A DNA stretch of 64,000 nt. It comes from Peptococcaceae bacterium BICA1-7 (GTDB lineage: Bacteria > Bacillota > Desulfotomaculia > Desulfotomaculales > Desulfocucumaceae). Location of the stretch: the NCBI GenBank assembly GCA_000802095.1, contig JUEB01000033.1, positions 62,001-126,000 of the forward strand. The letters are read 5' to 3'. The position numbers and the translations under genes are program-made. The stretch's first letter is position 1. Each line of letters begins with the position of its first letter. A model generated the notes under the pieces. That model was not told the DNA's origin. It saw only the letters and a program-made list of their open reading frames with translations, and searched no databases. Of this stretch, positions 37,580-55,450 are shown one piece after another.

Positions 37580-38077
37580 TTAGCGGCAGTTTAAGGTAAA
37601 CAGGTAGTTCCATTTAGACGCATGCTTTAATTCATCGGTATAGATTTCTGTAATCATATTCCTGTAGGGTAAAAACTCAAAGCCGAATAAAATTTTGCGG
37701 TACCTTTCAACTGCCCCCAGTTCCCCAAAGAGCGCCCTTGTAATTCCTTCACAATAATTTCTGGGCGTCTCAAAGGTCTCCTCTGGAGCCTGGGGGATTT
37801 CCCGGCCGGTTACCTCCCAGTATATTTCCCTGAACATTTTAGCGTGTTTCCTCTCATCATCTCTGATAGAAATTATTATCTCCCTTTGATCCGAGGGCGC
37901 CACACTTAATAAATAGTCATAAAAAAGCTCGTCTTCCCTTTCTGCGCCTACAGACTGCACTATCAGCTCCAAGGCCTCGGGGTAGGCATAAACCGGAACA
38001 TACTGGTAGGTAGGGTAATACTTATAGGTGGTGTAGGGGTAGCCCGGGTAAGGTGTACTCATAATATCCGAACTCAT
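37580..38077 (-). CDS. Ferritin-like domain protein with Tyr/Pro-rich N-terminus
   Basis: 165 residues. Residues 1-35 are rich in Tyr and Pro (YPGYPYTTYKYYPTYQYVPVYAYP). The rest is a four-helix ferritin-like domain with two Glu/ExxH ligand pairs: SVGAEREDELFYDYL, IRDDERKHAKMFREIYWEVTG, FGELGAVERYRKIL and EIYTDELKHASKWNYL. This is a complete di-iron site as in rubrerythrin relatives. The Tyr-rich head resembles coat proteins of spores, so it may be a CotJC-like or Mn/Fe protein in the spore coat. ATG start with AAAGGAGC ten bases upstream. Its own terminator follows. Confidence 0.72.
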   Translation of the reverse strand: MSSDIMSTPYPGYPYTTYKYYPTYQYVPVYAYPEALELIVQSVGAEREDELFYDYLLSVAPSDQREIIISIRDDERKHAKMFREIYWEVTGREIPQAPEETFETPRNYCEGITRALFGELGAVERYRKILFGFEFLPYRNMITEIYTDELKHASKWNYLFTLNCR

Positions 38078-46318: not shown

Positions 46319-46342
46319 AAAAACCGCCATCTGGCGGTTTAA
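46319..46342. terminator. Bidirectional terminator
   Basis: AAACCGCC-ATCT-GGCGGTTT. On the minus strand the stem is followed by TTTTATTT, so it mainly ends the multicopper-oxidase operon. Confidence 0.75.
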
Positions 46343-46413: not shown

Positions 46414-48234
46414 TTAGGCGGGAGTATTAACCATAATTTCGTTAGAGTAACCGGAATACCCTCCTGTTTTACTGTATGCCCTGACCCTGTAATAATAAAT
46501 AGTGTTTCCGGCAACCTGGAAATCAAAGTAGTAGAAGTTGTATTTATCAACTGAGCCTATTTCATTATATTCTGCTGCCCCGGATTTACGTTCAATTATA
46601 AACTCATCCTTATTGGTATAATTAAAATCCCATTTCAATATCACAAGATCTGATGAAATATAGACGGACTGTAGGTGTTCGGGTGCTCCAGGGGGAATTG
46701 CCGGAGTGGTAACGCCGCATTCATTGGAATAACACGAAGACTCAGTTGAGTTATAGGCCTGAACACGATAGTAATACCTGGTATTTGCTTCAACAGTGTC
46801 ATCACTGTAGGCTGTCATATCCCCGTCAACCTCGGCTATGACCAGGTATCTTTCGGTCTCCGCTGTCCTGCGCTCAATTATATAGCCGTTCGCATTGTAC
46901 GCGTTATTCGTCCACGCCAGGTCAATTTGATTGGCGGTTACGGCAATACAGGCCAGGTTTGCAGGTCCGGCTATAAGATCATGGGTGGTCACACTACACC
47001 GGTTGGAATAGCCTGAAAAACCTTTTGAATTATAGGCGCGAACCCTATACGTATAGCTGGTATTAGGAAGCACGTTTCTGTCCGTATATTCCGTCAGCCC
47101 GGGTGCAGTCAGGAAAGCTAATATTTCAAAATCCTCCACCCCGGTTTTACGCTCCACTACACAGCCTTCCTCATTGATGGCCCTGTCTCTCCAGTTTAGG
47201 CGGATTCCATTCCGGCAAATCACAGAACAGGCGAGTTGCGAGGGAGATACAGGCACATCTACGGGGTCGGCCTGCATTACATCCAGCCTGGTGGCCATGC
47301 CCCCGGGATACTGGCCGGCGTTGCAAAGATGATGGTGGTCCCGGTCGTGGAGATAATATTGTCCCTCCGGGCCTGAGATAAAAAGAAGGTCATAGCTTTC
47401 CCCCGAGGCAATGGTTATGGTATTTTTGAGATAGGTAGCATCAATTGAACCGGTCCCTGCAGCTAATGGCCAGCTGTCAACAGCCACTACCCGGGCAGTT
47501 ATACCTTCCAGGCGGAAGCTATGGTTTTGAGAGCCGGCGTTGAGACACCTTATAAGAATTCTTTTTCCAGGGGCAGCATTTACTTTGGAGCCTAGCGGCT
47601 GGCTAACGAGAATATCAACATCGTCCGGCAGCACTGTAAAAGGATATGATCGCCCGTTGATGAGCCAGTAGTCAGGTTCAAAATCCAACATATTAAAGGA
47701 GCTTCCCGAGTCCACTGCCAGGTTGAAACCGCTGTCCACTTCACTAAGAATTAGTACTTTATCCACATCGTAAAGGGAAGCGGTATTATTCCCATAGGCG
47801 GTATGGTAATCGGGATCAGAAGGATGATCAACTCCTGGAGGATAAATTACCATAGCTCCGTACAATCCCATGGGCACCTGTCTTTCCGGACTGGCGCCGC
47901 TCTCGTATAAGAACACCCCGGGGCGGGTGGCAGTGAAGGTATATGTCACAACTCCTCCGGGAGAGGCATGGGTATTGTACGAAGTGAATACACCGTTTTC
48001 TTTAACCGGAGTAGGAATATAATCCTGACCGGGAAATATGAGGGATACAAAATCACTCAGCTCATTGCGCAGTGTAATTTTTATAACATCTCCAACCCGG
48101 GCAATGATCACGGGGCCTGGAAGTTGCGGGTTTCCGCCGGCTGCAGCTGCAAATCCCCAGAAAGGAACCTCCACCCCGTCGGGAAAGGCTATTATCCCCT
48201 TCTTTGCCCACAAATCCTTGGTAATAACGGCCAT
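46414..48234 (-). CDS. Cupredoxin/multicopper-oxidase-like protein with three fibronectin III domains
   Basis: 606 residues from the ATG at 48234 (AAAGGAG nine bases upstream). Residues 1-320 follow the multicopper-oxidase fold (LPGPVIIARVGDVIKITLRNEL, GVFLYESGASPERQVPMGLYGAMVIYP, YWLINGRSYP), but the ligand motifs are lost: no HxHG, and YESG in place of HxH in the first domain. The C-terminal site reads YYLHDRDHHHLCNAG, rich in His but irregular. Then three FN3 repeats (about 325-425, 428-515, 520-606), each with SQLACS/NLACI starts and YTYRVRAYN-type ends. No signal peptide. Last gene of the four-gene operon. It may be a structural partner of the other two. Confidence 0.8.
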   Translation of the reverse strand: MAVITKDLWAKKGIIAFPDGVEVPFWGFAAAAGGNPQLPGPVIIARVGDVIKITLRNELSDFVSLIFPGQDYIPTPVKENGVFTSYNTHASPGGVVTYTFTATRPGVFLYESGASPERQVPMGLYGAMVIYPPGVDHPSDPDYHTAYGNNTASLYDVDKVLILSEVDSGFNLAVDSGSSFNMLDFEPDYWLINGRSYPFTVLPDDVDILVSQPLGSKVNAAPGKRILIRCLNAGSQNHSFRLEGITARVVAVDSWPLAAGTGSIDATYLKNTITIASGESYDLLFISGPEGQYYLHDRDHHHLCNAGQYPGGMATRLDVMQADPVDVPVSPSQLACSVICRNGIRLNWRDRAINEEGCVVERKTGVEDFEILAFLTAPGLTEYTDRNVLPNTSYTYRVRAYNSKGFSGYSNRCSVTTHDLIAGPANLACIAVTANQIDLAWTNNAYNANGYIIERRTAETERYLVIAEVDGDMTAYSDDTVEANTRYYYRVQAYNSTESSCYSNECGVTTPAIPPGAPEHLQSVYISSDLVILKWDFNYTNKDEFIIERKSGAAEYNEIGSVDKYNFYYFDFQVAGNTIYYYRVRAYSKTGGYSGYSNEIMVNTPA

Positions 48235-48269
48235 GGCCAAATCTCCTTTCTAAAAACACAGGCAGCGTT

Positions 48270-49478
48270 CTACAGCCCGTGAGATTCAACAGGAAGCATA
48301 CCGTGGTGGCGCTCCAGAGTACCGTTGGGATAAACGGCAATCATGGTCATCAATCCTCCGGGAAAAGCCCCCCAGTTGGTTATCTCGGGCTCGGCATGAG
48401 AGTGAAGCATAAAGTGGTATTCTCCAACCTCGTTATAAGAAACCATACCGGATGGAAGCTCCCCTTTGACTCCCAAATAAGGGCTGCCGCTCCACATGGT
48501 CATGCCCGTATGGCCAATTGCCATGTTCCTCAAATTGGGGATTACGGTGGGTATTTGGTTGGTAACCGGTTCAAAACCCAGTCCGGTCCATGTATATATC
48601 TGGTCATAGGTTTGGCCGGCTCCGGTGAGAACTGTAAATCTTTTGTACGAAAGGTCAGTTGTGTTGGAAAGGGTGCGGTTTTGTAATAGCCTGCCGTCCA
48701 TACCCACCAGCCGGGTATGATTACCGTGGGGGTGCAGAGGGTGGTTTTCCACTCCGGCCCCGGCGTAGCGAATAAGTACTTTTTCACCCGGCTCCAACAT
48801 TATCATGGCGCCGTGGGGCTGATTGGGCAAATGATCCACATTGTCGGGAAGCATGGTGTCATTGGCGCATCTTCCGTTCATTGTCCAGTACCTCGGTTTA
48901 TAAACCCTGGTGTCATACGGTTTACCAAGCTCAACAGCCTGATGGAGATCAGGGTCTATCTCCCCGACCACCAGAAGATATTCCCTGTCAAATTCAGTCC
49001 CGGTACCGGTGCCATAGGCAGTCTTATACCCGGTATGATCAGGCATGTAATCCTGGGGCCTGACAATAATAGCTCCATACAGCCCCATGGGCACCTGTTT
49101 GTGAGGATTGGTTCCGCTTTCATAGAGAAAAGTGCCGCTGTTTTCAGCATAAAAAGTATAGGTAATGGTTTCACCGGGCAGACAGTGGTTCGTAAGGGAA
49201 ATAAGGCTGCCGTTTTGATACTGGGGTTGAACCGGATTACCGTTAACTCTAACCTCACTTTGCCCGGGAAAAAGTATAGATACCGGTTCCGGCAGGCTGT
49301 TGGTCAGATTAACTGTAACCATAGTCCTGGCCGGAGGGTCCTGCCGCTTTATTATGATTGTTGGTCCGGGCAGCTGAGCAGAACCCCCCGCTTTATCAGT
49401 GAAGCCCCAGATATATATGCTTTTTCCATCCGGAGTGCTGATGTAACCGTCGACGGCCCACAAGTCTATGGTAGGCAT
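48270..49478 (-). CDS. Multicopper-oxidase-like protein with C-terminal copper motif, Cys replaced by Ser
   Basis: 402 residues, no signal peptide. The first cupredoxin part has lost its ligands (FLYESGTNPHKQVPMG near 117-131). The second part keeps N245HPLHPHGNH254, the type 1/type 2-3 histidine motif, and HFMLH359SH361AEPEITN where catalytic enzymes have HCH; the type 1 copper Cys is therefore Ser360. It could contribute the second-domain half of a trinuclear copper site but not a normal type 1 site. RBS AAGGAGA before the ATG. Third gene of the operon, 31 nt behind the protein with intact first-domain motifs. Confidence 0.83.
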   Translation of the reverse strand: MPTIDLWAVDGYISTPDGKSIYIWGFTDKAGGSAQLPGPTIIIKRQDPPARTMVTVNLTNSLPEPVSILFPGQSEVRVNGNPVQPQYQNGSLISLTNHCLPGETITYTFYAENSGTFLYESGTNPHKQVPMGLYGAIIVRPQDYMPDHTGYKTAYGTGTGTEFDREYLLVVGEIDPDLHQAVELGKPYDTRVYKPRYWTMNGRCANDTMLPDNVDHLPNQPHGAMIMLEPGEKVLIRYAGAGVENHPLHPHGNHTRLVGMDGRLLQNRTLSNTTDLSYKRFTVLTGAGQTYDQIYTWTGLGFEPVTNQIPTVIPNLRNMAIGHTGMTMWSGSPYLGVKGELPSGMVSYNEVGEYHFMLHSHAEPEITNWGAFPGGLMTMIAVYPNGTLERHHGMLPVESHGL

Positions 49479-49509
49479 AACACTATCTCTCCTTCGGGTT
49501 AAATTTGCA

Positions 49510-50562
49510 TTACGCCTGGTTCGGCTCTGTCTGGTGAGGCAAGGAGCCTGGCGCGTATATCTGCACTTCTGTTACCATCCCTCCGGGCTCTACCCCGCCT
49601 GAGTTGTTCTTTATAAGATTACGGTTGTAAAAAGGAAGCGTTAGAGGATACATATCCGGTGCCTCCGGAGCTGTGAAAATGGCGTCGTAAGACTGTCCGG
49701 GAGCTATATAGATAATGTTTTTATTATAAGAAAGGTCCTCACCATTCTGACCCAGAGGGCGCATCCCGTCTATACCGACCACTTTCAATACGGCACCAAG
49801 CAGCTCCATGGCGTGCTGCTGGAAGCCCAGATTTACAAACCGCAGCAGCACCCTCTCTCCGGCATTTGCCTTGATTAAAGCAGGCCATGGCTGGGACTGC
49901 AGCCTGCTGCCTCCCGGGGTGTCGATGGTATCCGGGTAGGCACGGCCGTTAATAAGCCAGTAAGTTGGCCTATATTCGGTCCAGTCAGGCTCCTGCACCG
50001 TTGCCACCAGGTTATGGATGCTGCAGTCCAGCTCGTTTAAAAAAACATAGTATTCACGGTGGTACTCAGTCCCGGTGCCATAGCCATACGCTGTTTTATA
50101 AGCTGGGTCGGAAGAGTCGTAATCGTGCGGATAAACCACCAGCGGCCCAACCATGCCCATTTGAATGTGCTCTACGGGTTCGTGATGGCAGTGGTACATG
50201 TAGGTTCCGGGGTCCAGCGGCTTATAGTAGTATTCAAGATCCCTGCCCACCGGAACGGCCACGGATGCCTCCGGCACTCCGTCATAAAAGGCTATCTGGT
50301 TGGGAAAGCCGTGGTAGTGAATGGTATGAGGGTCATCAAGATCCGGCCGGGTGGGAGTGCCCAGGCTGGTAAGGGTAACTATATATTCGTTCCCTGCCTT
50401 CAAAAGAAGGGGAGGGGCCATCAGTTCCGCCCTGGCCCTGTAATTCACCAGTTCATTCTCCGGTACCCCGGATATATCGCCAAAACCGAAAATGTAATGC
50501 GTTCTTCCGTCGGGGGTGTTGACCCACCCGTCAGTGGCGGAACGGCGTATTCTTGTAATCAT
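49510..50562 (-). CDS. Multicopper-oxidase-like protein with intact first-domain copper sites
   Basis: 350 residues, two cupredoxin domains, no signal peptide. Domain 1 has H82YH84G and Y123HCHHEPVEHIQMGM137, that is HxH for the trinuclear site plus Cys125, His132 and a Met, a possible type 1 site as in two-domain oxidases and nitrite reductases. Domain 2 lacks the matching motifs: only FQQHAMEL remains, and the end (FYNRNLIKNNSGGVEPGGM) has no HCH. So it cannot form a trinuclear centre alone and would need a partner, possibly the product of the next gene. ATG with TAAGGAGG nine bases upstream. Second gene of the operon, 50 nt after the giant protein. Confidence 0.85.
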   Translation of the reverse strand: MITRIRRSATDGWVNTPDGRTHYIFGFGDISGVPENELVNYRARAELMAPPLLLKAGNEYIVTLTSLGTPTRPDLDDPHTIHYHGFPNQIAFYDGVPEASVAVPVGRDLEYYYKPLDPGTYMYHCHHEPVEHIQMGMVGPLVVYPHDYDSSDPAYKTAYGYGTGTEYHREYYVFLNELDCSIHNLVATVQEPDWTEYRPTYWLINGRAYPDTIDTPGGSRLQSQPWPALIKANAGERVLLRFVNLGFQQHAMELLGAVLKVVGIDGMRPLGQNGEDLSYNKNIIYIAPGQSYDAIFTAPEAPDMYPLTLPFYNRNLIKNNSGGVEPGGMVTEVQIYAPGSLPHQTEPNQA

Positions 50563-50612
50563 GGCTTAAGCCTCCTTATTCTAGAAGCCCCTTCTGGACA
50601 TGACAGAACAAT

Positions 50613-53600
50613 TTATCCCTGATACTGGTCGGCCCCTATATCAATGGTTTGACCCCGGCTATCCCCGTCAAAGTCATCTTCCGGGGCACTGTAGCCGCCG
50701 TAAGACAGGGCGCCCTGGCCTATGACCGGGGAAACACCGGTTAGATGGTAGTCTCCCGTTAGTTCCGGCACATCTACAGCAATAATAATGCTTTTAAAAT
50801 CAGGCTGTGCGGCAAAGATAGCCGCCCTTACACTGGTGTCGTACTCATAGATGAATAACGGATTTACCGTCAAATTATTGCCTCCCCCGGGATATTCCGT
50901 GGTCAGGCTGCAGTAATTGGGGTTCAGTGTGCCCGGGGTGCCGAATACCTCCAGGTCAATTACCCCGCCGTCAGCTAACTGCAGTGTATTCAAATCAAAG
51001 TAATAGGCCCTGTTGTCCCAGAAGATATTGTTAAACAGCACCGGGTTGCTGAAATTGGGGGCGCCCGGCGGAAGGACGTTCTGGAAGGCAGCGCTGTGAA
51101 CTTCACTGGCCAGGCCTGCCCCGTGTGGCAGACGGTCGCTGTCTTCAGCCGTGGCAGTGGATATATTTTTGGCAATTGTATTGTTGTAAATAATCACCTC
51201 AGAGGCGTCGTCAAGGGCAATACCGCCGCCAAGGTCGGTGGACACGTTATTTACAATCATATTGTTATATATCTTTATCTGATAGGTGGTGGGCTGCAGC
51301 AGCCTGATGCCGCCCCCGTCATCATTGGCCAGGTTGCCCTGGACAAGGTTGTTGTAAATACTGACTTTACCCGAACCCGGAGAGAGATCCGCAGGCGGCC
51401 GGGGTAATTCCCCTCCCACCAGTATCCCTGCCCCTTCGTCAAAGGAGGCGTTATAGAGCACACAGTTGTGGTGGATACTTCCGTTATCGCTCAGGCCGAA
51501 GTGAGAAATGCCTCCGCCGTACTCGGCAGAATAGTTGCCGCAAATCTTGTTATAGGCCAGCTCGTAATTATCGGCGCCGTTAAATATTCCTATCCCTCCG
51601 GCCAGGTTGAGCCCGCCGTTGTTCAGAACACGGTTGTGATGGATATAAATGTTCTCATTGCGGCTGCTGCCTGCGTAGGGTTTACCGATGGTAATGCCCC
51701 CGCCGTAGCCTCCCGAGTTGCTTTGTATTACATTGTTGCTTATTTCCAGGTAGCGGCAGAATGCGTTGACATATATTCCACCTGCTCCGTTGCCCCTGGC
51801 GCCGGTAATGGTAAATCCGTCAATTAACGGGCTGTACTGTGGGGAAAAGTCCTGGTCTTTGGCAAGAACGGTAATAACCTGGCCTTCATAGATATTGGGG
51901 GTGTCAACAAAGTCATAATCCAGTGTGCTCAGAAGATTTTGCCATTTTGCAGGGTCCGTAAGGAAAAAACGTCCGTCAATGGTTGCGCCGGTTATGCCCA
52001 CGGGATTTCCTCCGGGGCCATCGGGATTGACGCCTCCAGGGCCTAATCCCTGAAGCCTGATCCTTTTTGCCGGGCCCCCCGCCGACCTGGTGTATAATAT
52101 TATATTTTCATAATAGATACCGGGATGGACCACAATCAAAGTGTCGCCGGCTGCCGCATCAACCGCTTCCTGAATGGTTGTGTAATCCCCGGCGCCATCC
52201 TGCCTTACATTGATTACAGCCGGATTATAGAGGCTTCCCAAAACGTGAAGGGTAATACCGGTGGGGGTGACCCTGCCGCTGTCGTTGGCAACCAGCAGCC
52301 GGGCCGTTCCACCCTGCCCTGACGAGAAAGAGGGCAGCACCTTCAGGGTGATCGAGGTATCACCCCAGGCCAGCACCTGGACATGATTATAGTCACCATT
52401 AAGACTTACTTTTCCTCCACCCTGATTTAAACCAAAGTCAAGCCCGGTAAGAGTAATCTCCTCCTGTTCCGATACCACGGCCTGGTTCACCCTGAACAGC
52501 TGTGGTGTCCCGCGCTGCACATCGCACTGAGGGGGCCGGGCAAACTGTGAGCCTGATGTGGCCACAAAGGCGGTTATGGGGAATACTGCAACATCAGCAT
52601 AAGTGGTCCTGCCCGGCCAGACATCAAAAACAAGCTGTAAAGTTTGATAATTGGGGTTATAGCCAAGGTTTGGCCTGTCCGGATCGCCGGGGTCATTTCC
52701 GATAATCCTGTACATGTAAGGAACTATTCCCGAAGGAGTAGGCACATTGCAGGTGTAGGTTGACGGCAGAAGAACTTCAAAAATACCGTTCTTATCGGTA
52801 TATACCGTAGTAATCAACTTACCTGTATAGTCCCTGACGCCAACCGGGGTATAGGGAATACCTCTTTTCCCTCCGTAATAAATAAGGCTGGGATCAGTCT
52901 CTATATTTACGTCATCCACCAGCAGCCCCAGTATCCTGCCGGGGATGGGAACATCCGTGAAAAGATAAAAGTCCGCCGCCGCGTTTTCACCCTCTCCCAG
53001 GATTACCTCTTTCATATTGCATAGGGGCCGGTACTGTCCGTTGTAAGGGCTGCGGGGGTCCTGAACCAGGTGCAGCTCACCGGCGCAGGGAGGAGCGGGT
53101 ATCCAGGCCCGGCTTTCTGCCGCCTGTTTTCTTTCCGGGCACACCGGCACACCGTTTTCCCGGCGGGCGAGGATGTCGTTAAGCACATAGCGGTCACCCT
53201 GGTCGGTATTCACCGATTCTTCGGCAACCACCCTGTACAGTGGTGTCGGGCTGCCGTCCGGAAGAGGATTGCCGGGATCTTCCGGGGGAACAACCTCCAC
53301 GTAATATTTTCCGGCCGGAAGCCGCTCTGTCAGGTATTCTCCGGTTTCCGGATCGGTTATCGGCCGGTTGCTGTCATCAAGTACCCACCTTTCTTCAAAG
53401 GCGTAGCCACCGTCAAAAACGCCCGGCCTTACCTGACCCTCCAGGCTGGGTTTTTCAATGCACCCGGGGTCCGGAGGGGCGTGGGGAGGCACACAGCCCG
53501 TGGGGTGCTCCCAGGGGTCTGTGGTAACAGTATTAATAAGCGTTAAAGAGCCATCGCTTTCTTTCTGGTAAAGGTTCACCGTTACTCCCGGGATTCCGGG

Positions 53601-55280
53601 CTCAAAGTCTTCTGCTGCGGCATACCGGGGATCAGTCTCATTGCGCATGGTGGCATAACGCACTATACCGGAAATGCCGCCATTTTCCCCGGGATCATAA
53701 GGGCGCTTGCCAAAATCGATATAGTTCGTGCCTCCGGCCCAGGTTATCACGGCGGCTGTCAAAGCCCCTTCAAACACCTCGGGTACGGGGTAACGATTCT
53801 CAGGATTGGCGGAAACAGCGGTGCGGGCCAGACGGGCAAAACCTACCTCCGCCACCGTAAAACGCTCCAGCTCAAATACCTCGTTGAATGTGTAATTGCC
53901 GTCAGGGTTGGTAAGGGTGAAATATTGAACGGTCCCGTCCTTGAAGCGGGTCAATAACTCGACTTCAGGCACTCCCGCTTCGCCGGGGTCATACAGGCCG
54001 TTTTCATTGCTGTCAATGAATACTTTGCCCTTTATCCACCCGTACCAGCGGGGAATACCTATCTGCCCGGGGTAATTGACCGGGTCATCCTCCACCACAA
54101 CGTCCATTGAGCCGTTCTTATCCGGCAGCTGCACCGTCCGGAAAGAAATTATATAGTCAAGGGGCTCATCCCAGAGTGCCATCTGGTAAAGTCCCGGGGG
54201 GACACTATTAATCAAAAACGAACCGTCCGCTTCTCCGCGTCCCAGGTATACCTGCCGGTCGTTGCCGCCTATGTCGGTAAGGGCAACCCAGGGACGCTCC
54301 ACCGGCGGGCCGAAGGAAACAGGTATGCCCGGTGTGTCAAATTCGAATACTGTGCGCACCACGCTCCTGATAGTGCCCCTGACCTCTCCGGGGAGAGGTT
54401 CGGGGAATTGCACAGGCCGGACAAAACCAAACCAGACCACAGGGAAGCGGTAGAGGTACTCACTGCTGTACCCTTCATTTCCCTCTTCCACCCAGGCGTC
54501 AATAACATGGGTGCCTTCAATGGTGGTGGTTTGCACCCAGTCGGTGCCGTCCGGAGGTATAGCCTGCACCTCGTATTTCCCCGGGGGAATATTTTCTACA
54601 ACGGCGTACCCGTTTGCATCGGTGAGTATCTTTATTCCGCCTGTGCCCGGTACCGGGACGGGATTGCCATCTCCATCGTAAATATAAGCGCCGCTGGTGT
54701 CCTTCTGGTACTGGGTGCCCAGCGGGTTTCCGTAGTAATCAACGGTTAATTCCCCCACCGCGTCTCCAATTACAACACGAAAGCCCTCCAGCCCCGGTTC
54801 GGAGGGAAGGTCCGGTTCTCCGTTAACCGGCTGGTGATCATGAAAAACAAGCACCCTTATCTTGCTTAGAGGAAGTGGGTTGGGCAGAAGTTCAACAGTT
54901 ATTTCCGCATCCCCGCCGTCTATGGTAACCCAGCTGCCGCCCAATTTATAGCCGGGAGCTTTAACTGATACCAAGTAGCTGCCATTTGGCACATAGACTG
55001 TCGGACTGGTGGAACTCCCCACAGCTGCAACCGGGCTGTGACTGGCCGGTGGTTTTAGTGAAGGAATCTTGCTTTCATCAACTTCATCCGGAGGAACCCC
55101 CACCTGAGGGTCCCCGACGTTATTTTCGTTGACAATAAACTGAAATTGGTCAATAGGGAGTGGTGCATTGTTGGAACTACCTCTCAAGACTTTTATAGTA
55201 AGTGCCCATTTTTCCGTCACTCTACCGGCGGCGAAAGAGTACTCTCCAATACCAGTTGACATTGATGTGACTTCAGCCAT
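50613..55280 (-). CDS. Giant 1555-residue protein: Ig-like/SdrD-B repeats, IPT/TIG domain and parallel beta-helix
   Basis: No signal peptide, anchor or membrane segment at either end; the ATG has GAGAGGAGG about eight bases upstream, so the start is well supported. Domains: about 130-290 and 300-400 carboxypeptidase-regulatory-like folds (GYAVVENIPPGKYEVQA; GSFLINSVPPGLYQMAL); 417-520 an SdrD-B-like unit (KVFIDSNENGLYDPGEAGVPEVEL, with Ca-binding-type Asp/Asn); 540-700 and 778-900 more such units; 925-1015 an IPT/TIG domain; 1020-1555 a right-handed parallel beta-helix (QDGAGDYTTIQEAVDAA, then repeated NNxI/GGGI turns) ending DIGADQYQG. First gene of the operon with three copper-oxidase-like proteins. 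It looks like a scaffold or adhesive layer protein. Its function is unknown. Confidence 0.85.
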   Translation of the reverse strand: MAEVTSMSTGIGEYSFAAGRVTEKWALTIKVLRGSSNNAPLPIDQFQFIVNENNVGDPQVGVPPDEVDESKIPSLKPPASHSPVAAVGSSTSPTVYVPNGSYLVSVKAPGYKLGGSWVTIDGGDAEITVELLPNPLPLSKIRVLVFHDHQPVNGEPDLPSEPGLEGFRVVIGDAVGELTVDYYGNPLGTQYQKDTSGAYIYDGDGNPVPVPGTGGIKILTDANGYAVVENIPPGKYEVQAIPPDGTDWVQTTTIEGTHVIDAWVEEGNEGYSSEYLYRFPVVWFGFVRPVQFPEPLPGEVRGTIRSVVRTVFEFDTPGIPVSFGPPVERPWVALTDIGGNDRQVYLGRGEADGSFLINSVPPGLYQMALWDEPLDYIISFRTVQLPDKNGSMDVVVEDDPVNYPGQIGIPRWYGWIKGKVFIDSNENGLYDPGEAGVPEVELLTRFKDGTVQYFTLTNPDGNYTFNEVFELERFTVAEVGFARLARTAVSANPENRYPVPEVFEGALTAAVITWAGGTNYIDFGKRPYDPGENGGISGIVRYATMRNETDPRYAAAEDFEPGIPGVTVNLYQKESDGSLTLINTVTTDPWEHPTGCVPPHAPPDPGCIEKPSLEGQVRPGVFDGGYAFEERWVLDDSNRPITDPETGEYLTERLPAGKYYVEVVPPEDPGNPLPDGSPTPLYRVVAEESVNTDQGDRYVLNDILARRENGVPVCPERKQAAESRAWIPAPPCAGELHLVQDPRSPYNGQYRPLCNMKEVILGEGENAAADFYLFTDVPIPGRILGLLVDDVNIETDPSLIYYGGKRGIPYTPVGVRDYTGKLITTVYTDKNGIFEVLLPSTYTCNVPTPSGIVPYMYRIIGNDPGDPDRPNLGYNPNYQTLQLVFDVWPGRTTYADVAVFPITAFVATSGSQFARPPQCDVQRGTPQLFRVNQAVVSEQEEITLTGLDFGLNQGGGKVSLNGDYNHVQVLAWGDTSITLKVLPSFSSGQGGTARLLVANDSGRVTPTGITLHVLGSLYNPAVINVRQDGAGDYTTIQEAVDAAAGDTLIVVHPGIYYENIILYTRSAGGPAKRIRLQGLGPGGVNPDGPGGNPVGITGATIDGRFFLTDPAKWQNLLSTLDYDFVDTPNIYEGQVITVLAKDQDFSPQYSPLIDGFTITGARGNGAGGIYVNAFCRYLEISNNVIQSNSGGYGGGITIGKPYAGSSRNENIYIHHNRVLNNGGLNLAGGIGIFNGADNYELAYNKICGNYSAEYGGGISHFGLSDNGSIHHNCVLYNASFDEGAGILVGGELPRPPADLSPGSGKVSIYNNLVQGNLANDDGGGIRLLQPTTYQIKIYNNMIVNNVSTDLGGGIALDDASEVIIYNNTIAKNISTATAEDSDRLPHGAGLASEVHSAAFQNVLPPGAPNFSNPVLFNNIFWDNRAYYFDLNTLQLADGGVIDLEVFGTPGTLNPNYCSLTTEYPGGGNNLTVNPLFIYEYDTSVRAAIFAAQPDFKSIIIAVDVPELTGDYHLTGVSPVIGQGALSYGGYSAPEDDFDGDSRGQTIDIGADQYQG

Positions 55281-55422
55281 ATATTGGCCTCCTCTCTGGA
55301 CATGGTAAATACAGTTTGTGTTATTCTATTACCAGTTATTATGTGGTGTTACAATTTATTTACTTTTACCGACGTCTCTCTGTGACAGGGGACAGCTATC
55401 TAACACATAAGAACCTCTGGAC

Positions 55423-55450
55423 AAAAAAAACCACCTTGCCTGGTGGTTTT
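55423..55450 (-). terminator. Terminator of the MscS gene
   Basis: AAAACCACC / GGTGGTTTT with a 6-nt loop and TTTTTTTT on the minus strand. Confidence 0.85.

Follow-up and report, generated by a model that had tools for sequence, protein, structure and literature searches.

The BIG-MCO3-MCO2-MCO1 operon of Peptococcaceae bacterium BICA1-7 encodes a very large beta-helix protein and three two-domain multicopper oxidases (MCOs), and the way in which copper ligands are distributed among the three suggests a single active site to which MCO3 and MCO2 each contribute a part, and not three oxidases. What appears to be new is a single copper centre divided between two paralogues; in its favour are the complementary way in which the ligands are conserved and a natural experiment on a small scale. 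As the best explanation of the operon we lean, by a small measure, towards a spore-associated split-site oxidase with BIG as its scaffold, made in the mother cell. More tentatively, and falling just short of what we would call probable, the operon may encode a heterotrimeric spore-surface MCO, composed of three tandem paralogues with a single T1/trinuclear centre across two gene products, which occurs in largely anaerobic-looking spore formers and is the unfused counterpart of ceruloplasmin and MnxG. No earlier description of this operon was found in the literature searched.

Results

Layout of the operon and its products

The operon lies on the minus strand of the window (the whole stretch of 64,000 nucleotides that was analysed) and is transcribed in the order BIG (50613..55280), MCO3 (49510..50562), MCO2 (48270..49478) and MCO1 (46414..48240). 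The intergenic gaps are 50 nt (BIG/MCO3), 31 nt (MCO3/MCO2) and 29 nt (MCO2/MCO1). Terminator-like hairpins on the same strand are found 3' of MCO1 (46321..46340) and upstream of BIG (55427..55450), where the preceding unit ends. Judged from this layout, the four genes are one unit with a terminator-like hairpin on either side, and the earlier note was correct in describing a four-gene operon at these coordinates.

BIG (1555 aa) consists of SdrD_B-like and CarboxypepD_reg-like beta-sandwich domains followed by a C-terminal right-handed beta-helix (Pfam SdrD_B, CarboxypepD_reg and Beta_helix). Orthologues in 26 other genomes show conservation along the entire protein. The BIG of Tepidibacillus decaturensis is longer and is encoded by a 1960-aa ORF together with a second, N-terminal ORF; it apparently has additional domains (L040:2747-8943). 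Cu-oxidase domains were detected in all three MCOs by Pfam, and MCO1 also contains fn3 repeats (approximately 46414-47250, minus strand), which are present in some lineages only.

A segment resembling a signal peptide was searched for by hydrophobicity in the N-termini of the orthologues of all four families and was found in none. The best 12-residue Kyte-Doolittle mean within the first 45 residues did not exceed 2.2, compared with 3.1-3.4 by the same measure for three proteins encoded in the window that are exported or anchored in the membrane. The absence of signal peptides that had been proposed for the four proteins thus holds for them and for every orthologue. Neither an LPXTG motif nor a membrane segment was found at the C-terminus of BIG (..GQTIDIGADQYQG).

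Fold and relationships of the three oxidases

The closest solved relatives of MCO1, MCO2 and MCO3 are the type C two-domain enzymes (2dMCOs) 3g5w and 2zwn in the PDB, identified by profile matches for MCO1 and MCO2 and by sequence matches for MCO3. An AlphaFold model of the MCO2 from the window, built with 66 family sequences (mean pLDDT 86.5, pTM 0.88), superimposed on 2zwn with Z 31.0 (282 residues, 2.5 A) and on 3g5w with Z 30.6 (285 residues, 2.5 A). This MCO2 model and the PDB matches of all three proteins conform to the two-domain 2dMCO fold. Domain 2 of MCO2 contains a conserved insert, about 50 residues long (IPNLRN..TMWSGSPYLG.KG; 48429..48581, minus strand), for which the confidence of the model was low.

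By fold and motifs, MCO3, MCO2 and MCO1 are paralogous two-domain MCOs of the trimer-forming kind, with MCO3 providing the predicted domain-1 half of the site and MCO2 the predicted domain-2 half. Each of them formed a separate clan in the tree (support 0.998 for MCO1, 1.0 for MCO3 and a low 0.31 for MCO2). The triplication would therefore be older than the spread of the operon, a conclusion to be taken with caution in view of the MCO2 value. The host genome carries a further multicopper oxidase gene (G000:C28:21379-22632, a 569-aa open frame scoring over the Cu-oxidase_3 cut-off), which is only distantly related to the MCOs of the operon.

Division of the copper ligands between MCO3 and MCO2

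In the alignment with 3g5w, domain 1 of MCO3 contains HTIHYH, HCH and then H132 and M135/M137, i.e. the T1 ligands together with four trinuclear histidines. H79-T-I-H82-Y-H84 (50311..50328, minus strand) supplies one T1 and two trinuclear ligands, whereas in the segment comprising H124-C125-H126, the T1 ligand H132 and M135/M137 (50152..50193, minus strand) two trinuclear histidines flank the T1 cysteine. MCO3 thus has its T1 site (H79, C125, H132, M135/M137) in the N-terminal domain, as is typical of type C enzymes; MCO1 and MCO2 do not. Domain 2 of MCO3 is degenerate and the ligand equivalents are lost (QQHAMELLG, YNRNL). MCO2 shows the complementary pattern: the ligand positions of domain 1 are occupied by ILFPG and FLYESG, and domain 2 carries the other four trinuclear histidines in HPLHPH and HSH. 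Two of these are in H246-P-L-H249-P-H251 (48726..48743, minus strand), which also includes H246, and two in H359-S-H361 (48396..48404, minus strand), between which the T1 cysteine is missing. Both ligand halves are absent from MCO1, which has no recognisable copper site. Four of the six domains of the three proteins are consequently degenerate, and the full T1 and trinuclear set is present in no single chain and is complete only in MCO3 and MCO2 together. The earlier description of three MCO-like proteins was therefore right as to their Cu-oxidase domains, whereas the copper ligands are incomplete in each of them taken alone.

The two halves are conserved side by side. HxxHxH/HCH/H of MCO3 was kept in all 28 genomes having both MCO3 and MCO2, and HxxHxH/HSH of MCO2 in 27 of the 28, the exception being Desulfocucumis palustris (L041, H359N). 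Two genomes from different families, L088 and L157, have MCO3 and MCO1 without MCO2. In L088, MCO3 reads HTIYWE and HCY, so that the T1 ligands remain although trinuclear ligands are lost; L157 has hardly any of the ligands left. The MCO3 ligands were intact in 28 of 28 genomes with MCO2 and in neither of the two without it (Fisher p = 0.0023), these two being the only MCO2-less genomes with MCO3 in the sample. The absence of MCO2 was checked genome-wide; one of the two genomes is 72% complete, with MCO3 and MCO1 directly adjacent. Loss of the MCO3 ligands in the absence of MCO2 is what a shared site predicts. Since L088 and L157 both lack BIG as well, the ligand loss could also reflect general decay.

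Distribution of the operon and its decayed copies

A search for the same four-gene set in other genomes, as the earlier note had suggested, recovered the gene order BIG-MCO3-MCO2-MCO1 in 27 distinct genomes of the phylum, with protein identities of about 40-80%. The preservation of the order at this degree of divergence means that the arrangement is not due to chance. Counted by MCO2 matches, the set was present in 20 of 398 sampled genomes of the phylum, and further relatives also carry it. Two of these 20 are decayed copies in which a true MCO2 is missing. Desulfallas sp. Bu1-1, Thermincola ferriacetica bins and Tepidibacillus decaturensis are among the named carriers. The four genes behave like a single unit, given that the operon is patchily distributed within genera and that its flanking genes vary between species. 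Among the loci compared, no neighbouring gene indicative of a pathway was widely shared.

Several loci have lost parts of the set. A distant relative (G417, locus L087) has kept MCO1 but of BIG no more than the first 580 residues, and its MCO3 and MCO2 are deleted. In the decayed copies of G102 and G851, both MCO2 and BIG are gone. In Desulfocucumis palustris (L041/G006) the three MCO genes are kept and BIG was not found in a genome that is 84% complete; this locus possibly represents an early stage of decay.

Link to sporulation

The SpoIVA gene was found in 19 of the 20 positive sampled hosts and in 336 of the 398 genomes overall. This difference is not significant by itself, and with SpoIVA present in 84% of the phylum as sampled, its occurrence in the hosts is weak evidence. 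The one exception (G381) has SpoIIR, as have thirteen other genomes checked. The earlier note had named occurrence of the operon in non-spore-formers as grounds for rejecting a spore function; it was looked for and no such case was found, all the hosts checked having SpoIVA and/or SpoIIR.

The region upstream of BIG was more informative. Boxes of the sigma-K type (AC-N16/17-CATANNNTA) with at least seven of the eight consensus bases were present in 13 of 20 BIG upstream regions (after removal of near-duplicates), compared with 15 of 90 control upstream regions taken at the same loci (Fisher 3.6e-5; Mann-Whitney p = 1.6e-6). This enrichment was matched by none of 150 permuted motifs, other spacings gave smaller differences, and no enrichment was seen on the reverse strand of the BIG upstream regions. 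The −10 matches alone also differed from the controls (p = 0.002). No enrichment upstream of BIG was observed with sigma-E, sigma-G and sigma-A motifs, nor with the sigma-F motif, which was tested against shuffles. The upstream regions of dpaA, used as a positive control in the same genomes, contained AC-N17-CATATA(T/C)T(G/A) in most cases. In the window, the candidate sigma-K-type promoter of the operon is AC-N17-AATAGAATA (55322..55349, minus strand), with seven of the eight consensus bases. The host encodes a sigma-K-like factor above the family cut-off. The operon is thus predicted to belong to the sporulation sigma-K regulon.

An intact sigma-K-like gene of the host genome is located at C26:296264-296911. 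A second one, outside the window (G000:C17:232170-241061), is divided into two co-linear halves (model positions 6-117 and 108-226) about 8.2 kb apart and looks like a sigK interrupted by a skin-like element.

Some neighbours of the operon are spore-related: a Coat_F gene adjoins it in L037 and Mn-catalase (CotJC-like) genes precede BIG in L082-L084. Most of the genes flanking the operon copies are not spore genes. Elsewhere in the window (37580-38077) there is a gene for a small protein which resembles rubrerythrin and whose N-terminus is rich in Tyr and Pro (YPGYPYTTYKYYPTYQYVPVYAYPE); it is possibly another spore-surface or ferritin-like protein.

Discussion

Comparison with known systems

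To our knowledge, known MCOs have all their ligand motifs on one polypeptide, which acts as a homotrimer or as a three- or six-domain fusion. The MCOs of the operon are most similar to the type C 2dMCOs, represented by the Nitrosomonas europaea blue copper oxidase (3g5w) and a metagenomic two-domain laccase (2zwn), with which they share a chain folded throughout into two cupredoxin domains (Z about 31 for the MCO2 model), the T1 motif of the N-terminal domain (MCO3) and the same HxxHxH and HxH motifs. In contrast to these homotrimers, in which one chain contains all the ligands, the ligands in the operon are split over two paralogues, a third paralogue has none and signal peptides are absent.

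CotA, the spore-coat laccase, is likewise an MCO without a signal peptide, and the MCOs of the operon resemble it in this respect and in their apparent mother-cell control. The complete site of CotA is contained in a single chain of three domains, whereas MCO1, MCO2 and MCO3 are two-domain chains with incomplete ligand sets.

With the six-domain oxidases, ceruloplasmin and MnxG of Bacillus spores, the operon shares the total of six cupredoxin domains, a single surviving trinuclear site and the partial loss of sites after triplication (PMC3600357), but it encodes three separate two-domain proteins in all the loci and not one six-domain chain. In the bacterial six-domain enzymes, the cluster was reported to lie between domains 2 and 3 (PMC3600357). 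MnxG is an oxidase of the exosporium of spores (PMC5622069 and references therein), and the Mnx manganese oxidase is the nearest biological precedent, similar in domain count and proposed location (PMC5622069). It differs in that MnxG is one chain and has different partners, and it is set beside the operon by description; MnxG was not among the best 60 PDB sequence relatives listed for MCO1 and MCO2.

BIG is similar to SdrD-type MSCRAMM adhesins and choice-of-anchor beta-helix proteins in its SdrD_B-like domains and right-handed beta-helix. Unlike these, it has no signal peptide, LPXTG motif or membrane anchor, i.e. neither of the two sorting features (signal peptide and C-terminal sorting signal) that characterize an MSCRAMM, and it adjoins oxidase genes in nearly every genome in which it occurs. 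To judge from its domain types and this linkage, BIG may be the scaffold that keeps the oxidase in one of the outer layers of the spore.

Proposed assembly and its alternatives

In 2dMCO trimers, the trinuclear cluster is bound by the domain-1 histidines of one protomer and the domain-2 histidines of its neighbour (PMC13151041), and six-domain oxidases are thought to have been derived from a triplicated two-domain protein through site loss (PMC3600357). MCO1, MCO2 and MCO3 probably form a hetero-oligomer, most simply a heterotrimeric ring of one each. In such a ring, which would be produced late in sporulation in the cytosol of the mother cell, only the interface between MCO3 and MCO2 would be live and would hold the one complete T1/trinuclear site, and MCO1 would be a structural filler. 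BIG as a scaffold would place the oxidase in an outer layer of the spore. The T1 copper of MCO3 would accept electrons from a reductant (a metal ion or a phenolic compound), the substrate being oxidized there as in any complete MCO, and the shared cluster would reduce O2. Many of the operon hosts are presumably anaerobes and would therefore have no obvious need for an O2-reducing enzyme, which counts against this explanation.

The three proteins might instead form separate homo-oligomers, with MCO3 acting as a T1 electron-transfer cupredoxin, MCO2 holding a T2/T3-like metal site and no cluster being shared. We consider this improbable. MCO3 and MCO2 both retain the fold of the trimeric two-domain type, and the T1 ligands survive without MCO2 in L088. 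An AlphaFold model of the tethered MCO3-MCO2-MCO1 of L073 (pLDDT 59.6, pTM 0.37, with an alignment of 11 sequences) speaks neither for nor against a complex; the three MCOs of this locus share one frame, and for the modelling the in-frame stops were replaced by serine. However, the trinuclear histidines in domain 1 of MCO3 would be useless without a partner and they are lost where MCO2 is gone. Less readily dismissed, but still unlikely, is a structural layer of the spore surface without oxidase activity, in which the cupredoxin folds and BIG would serve as building blocks and the remaining histidines would be structural or bind another metal. The degeneration of MCO1 and of most of the cupredoxin domains, the nature of BIG as a typical scaffold protein and the persistence of MCO1 and MCO3 without trinuclear ligands in L088 and L157 are in accord with it; nevertheless, all eight trinuclear histidines and the T1 set were kept in 27 of the 28 genomes having both MCO3 and MCO2, exactly complementary across two genes.

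The resemblance of BIG to secreted adhesin-like proteins would fit an extracellular or surface oxidase of vegetative cells, exported by an unrecognised route and engaged, for example, in metal redox chemistry. Some hosts are Thermincola ferriacetica or Tepidibacillus decaturensis, which are iron reducers. The sigma-K-type boxes, the sporulation genes of the hosts and the lack of an export signal in any orthologue make this reading very improbable. The absence of an export signal is expected of coat and exosporium proteins, and the mother cell is the predicted compartment of synthesis. From the sigma-K-type boxes, the missing signal peptides and the spore-forming hosts we infer a location at the spore surface, a reading that is reasonably supported. 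The oxidase-bearing spore-surface layer envisaged in the earlier note is thus indirectly supported in its spore association, whereas its three separate oxidases have given way to the putative split site.

Significance

If the split-site spore oxidase is real, the two-gene centre would be a living intermediate between the homotrimeric two-domain enzymes and the six-domain oxidases, for which an origin by triplication followed by site loss has been proposed (PMC3600357). It would also give the conserved four-gene operon a testable function and provide a candidate spore-surface oxidase for spore formers outside Bacillus, with a bearing on the oxygen tolerance of anaerobic spores and on metal chemistry.
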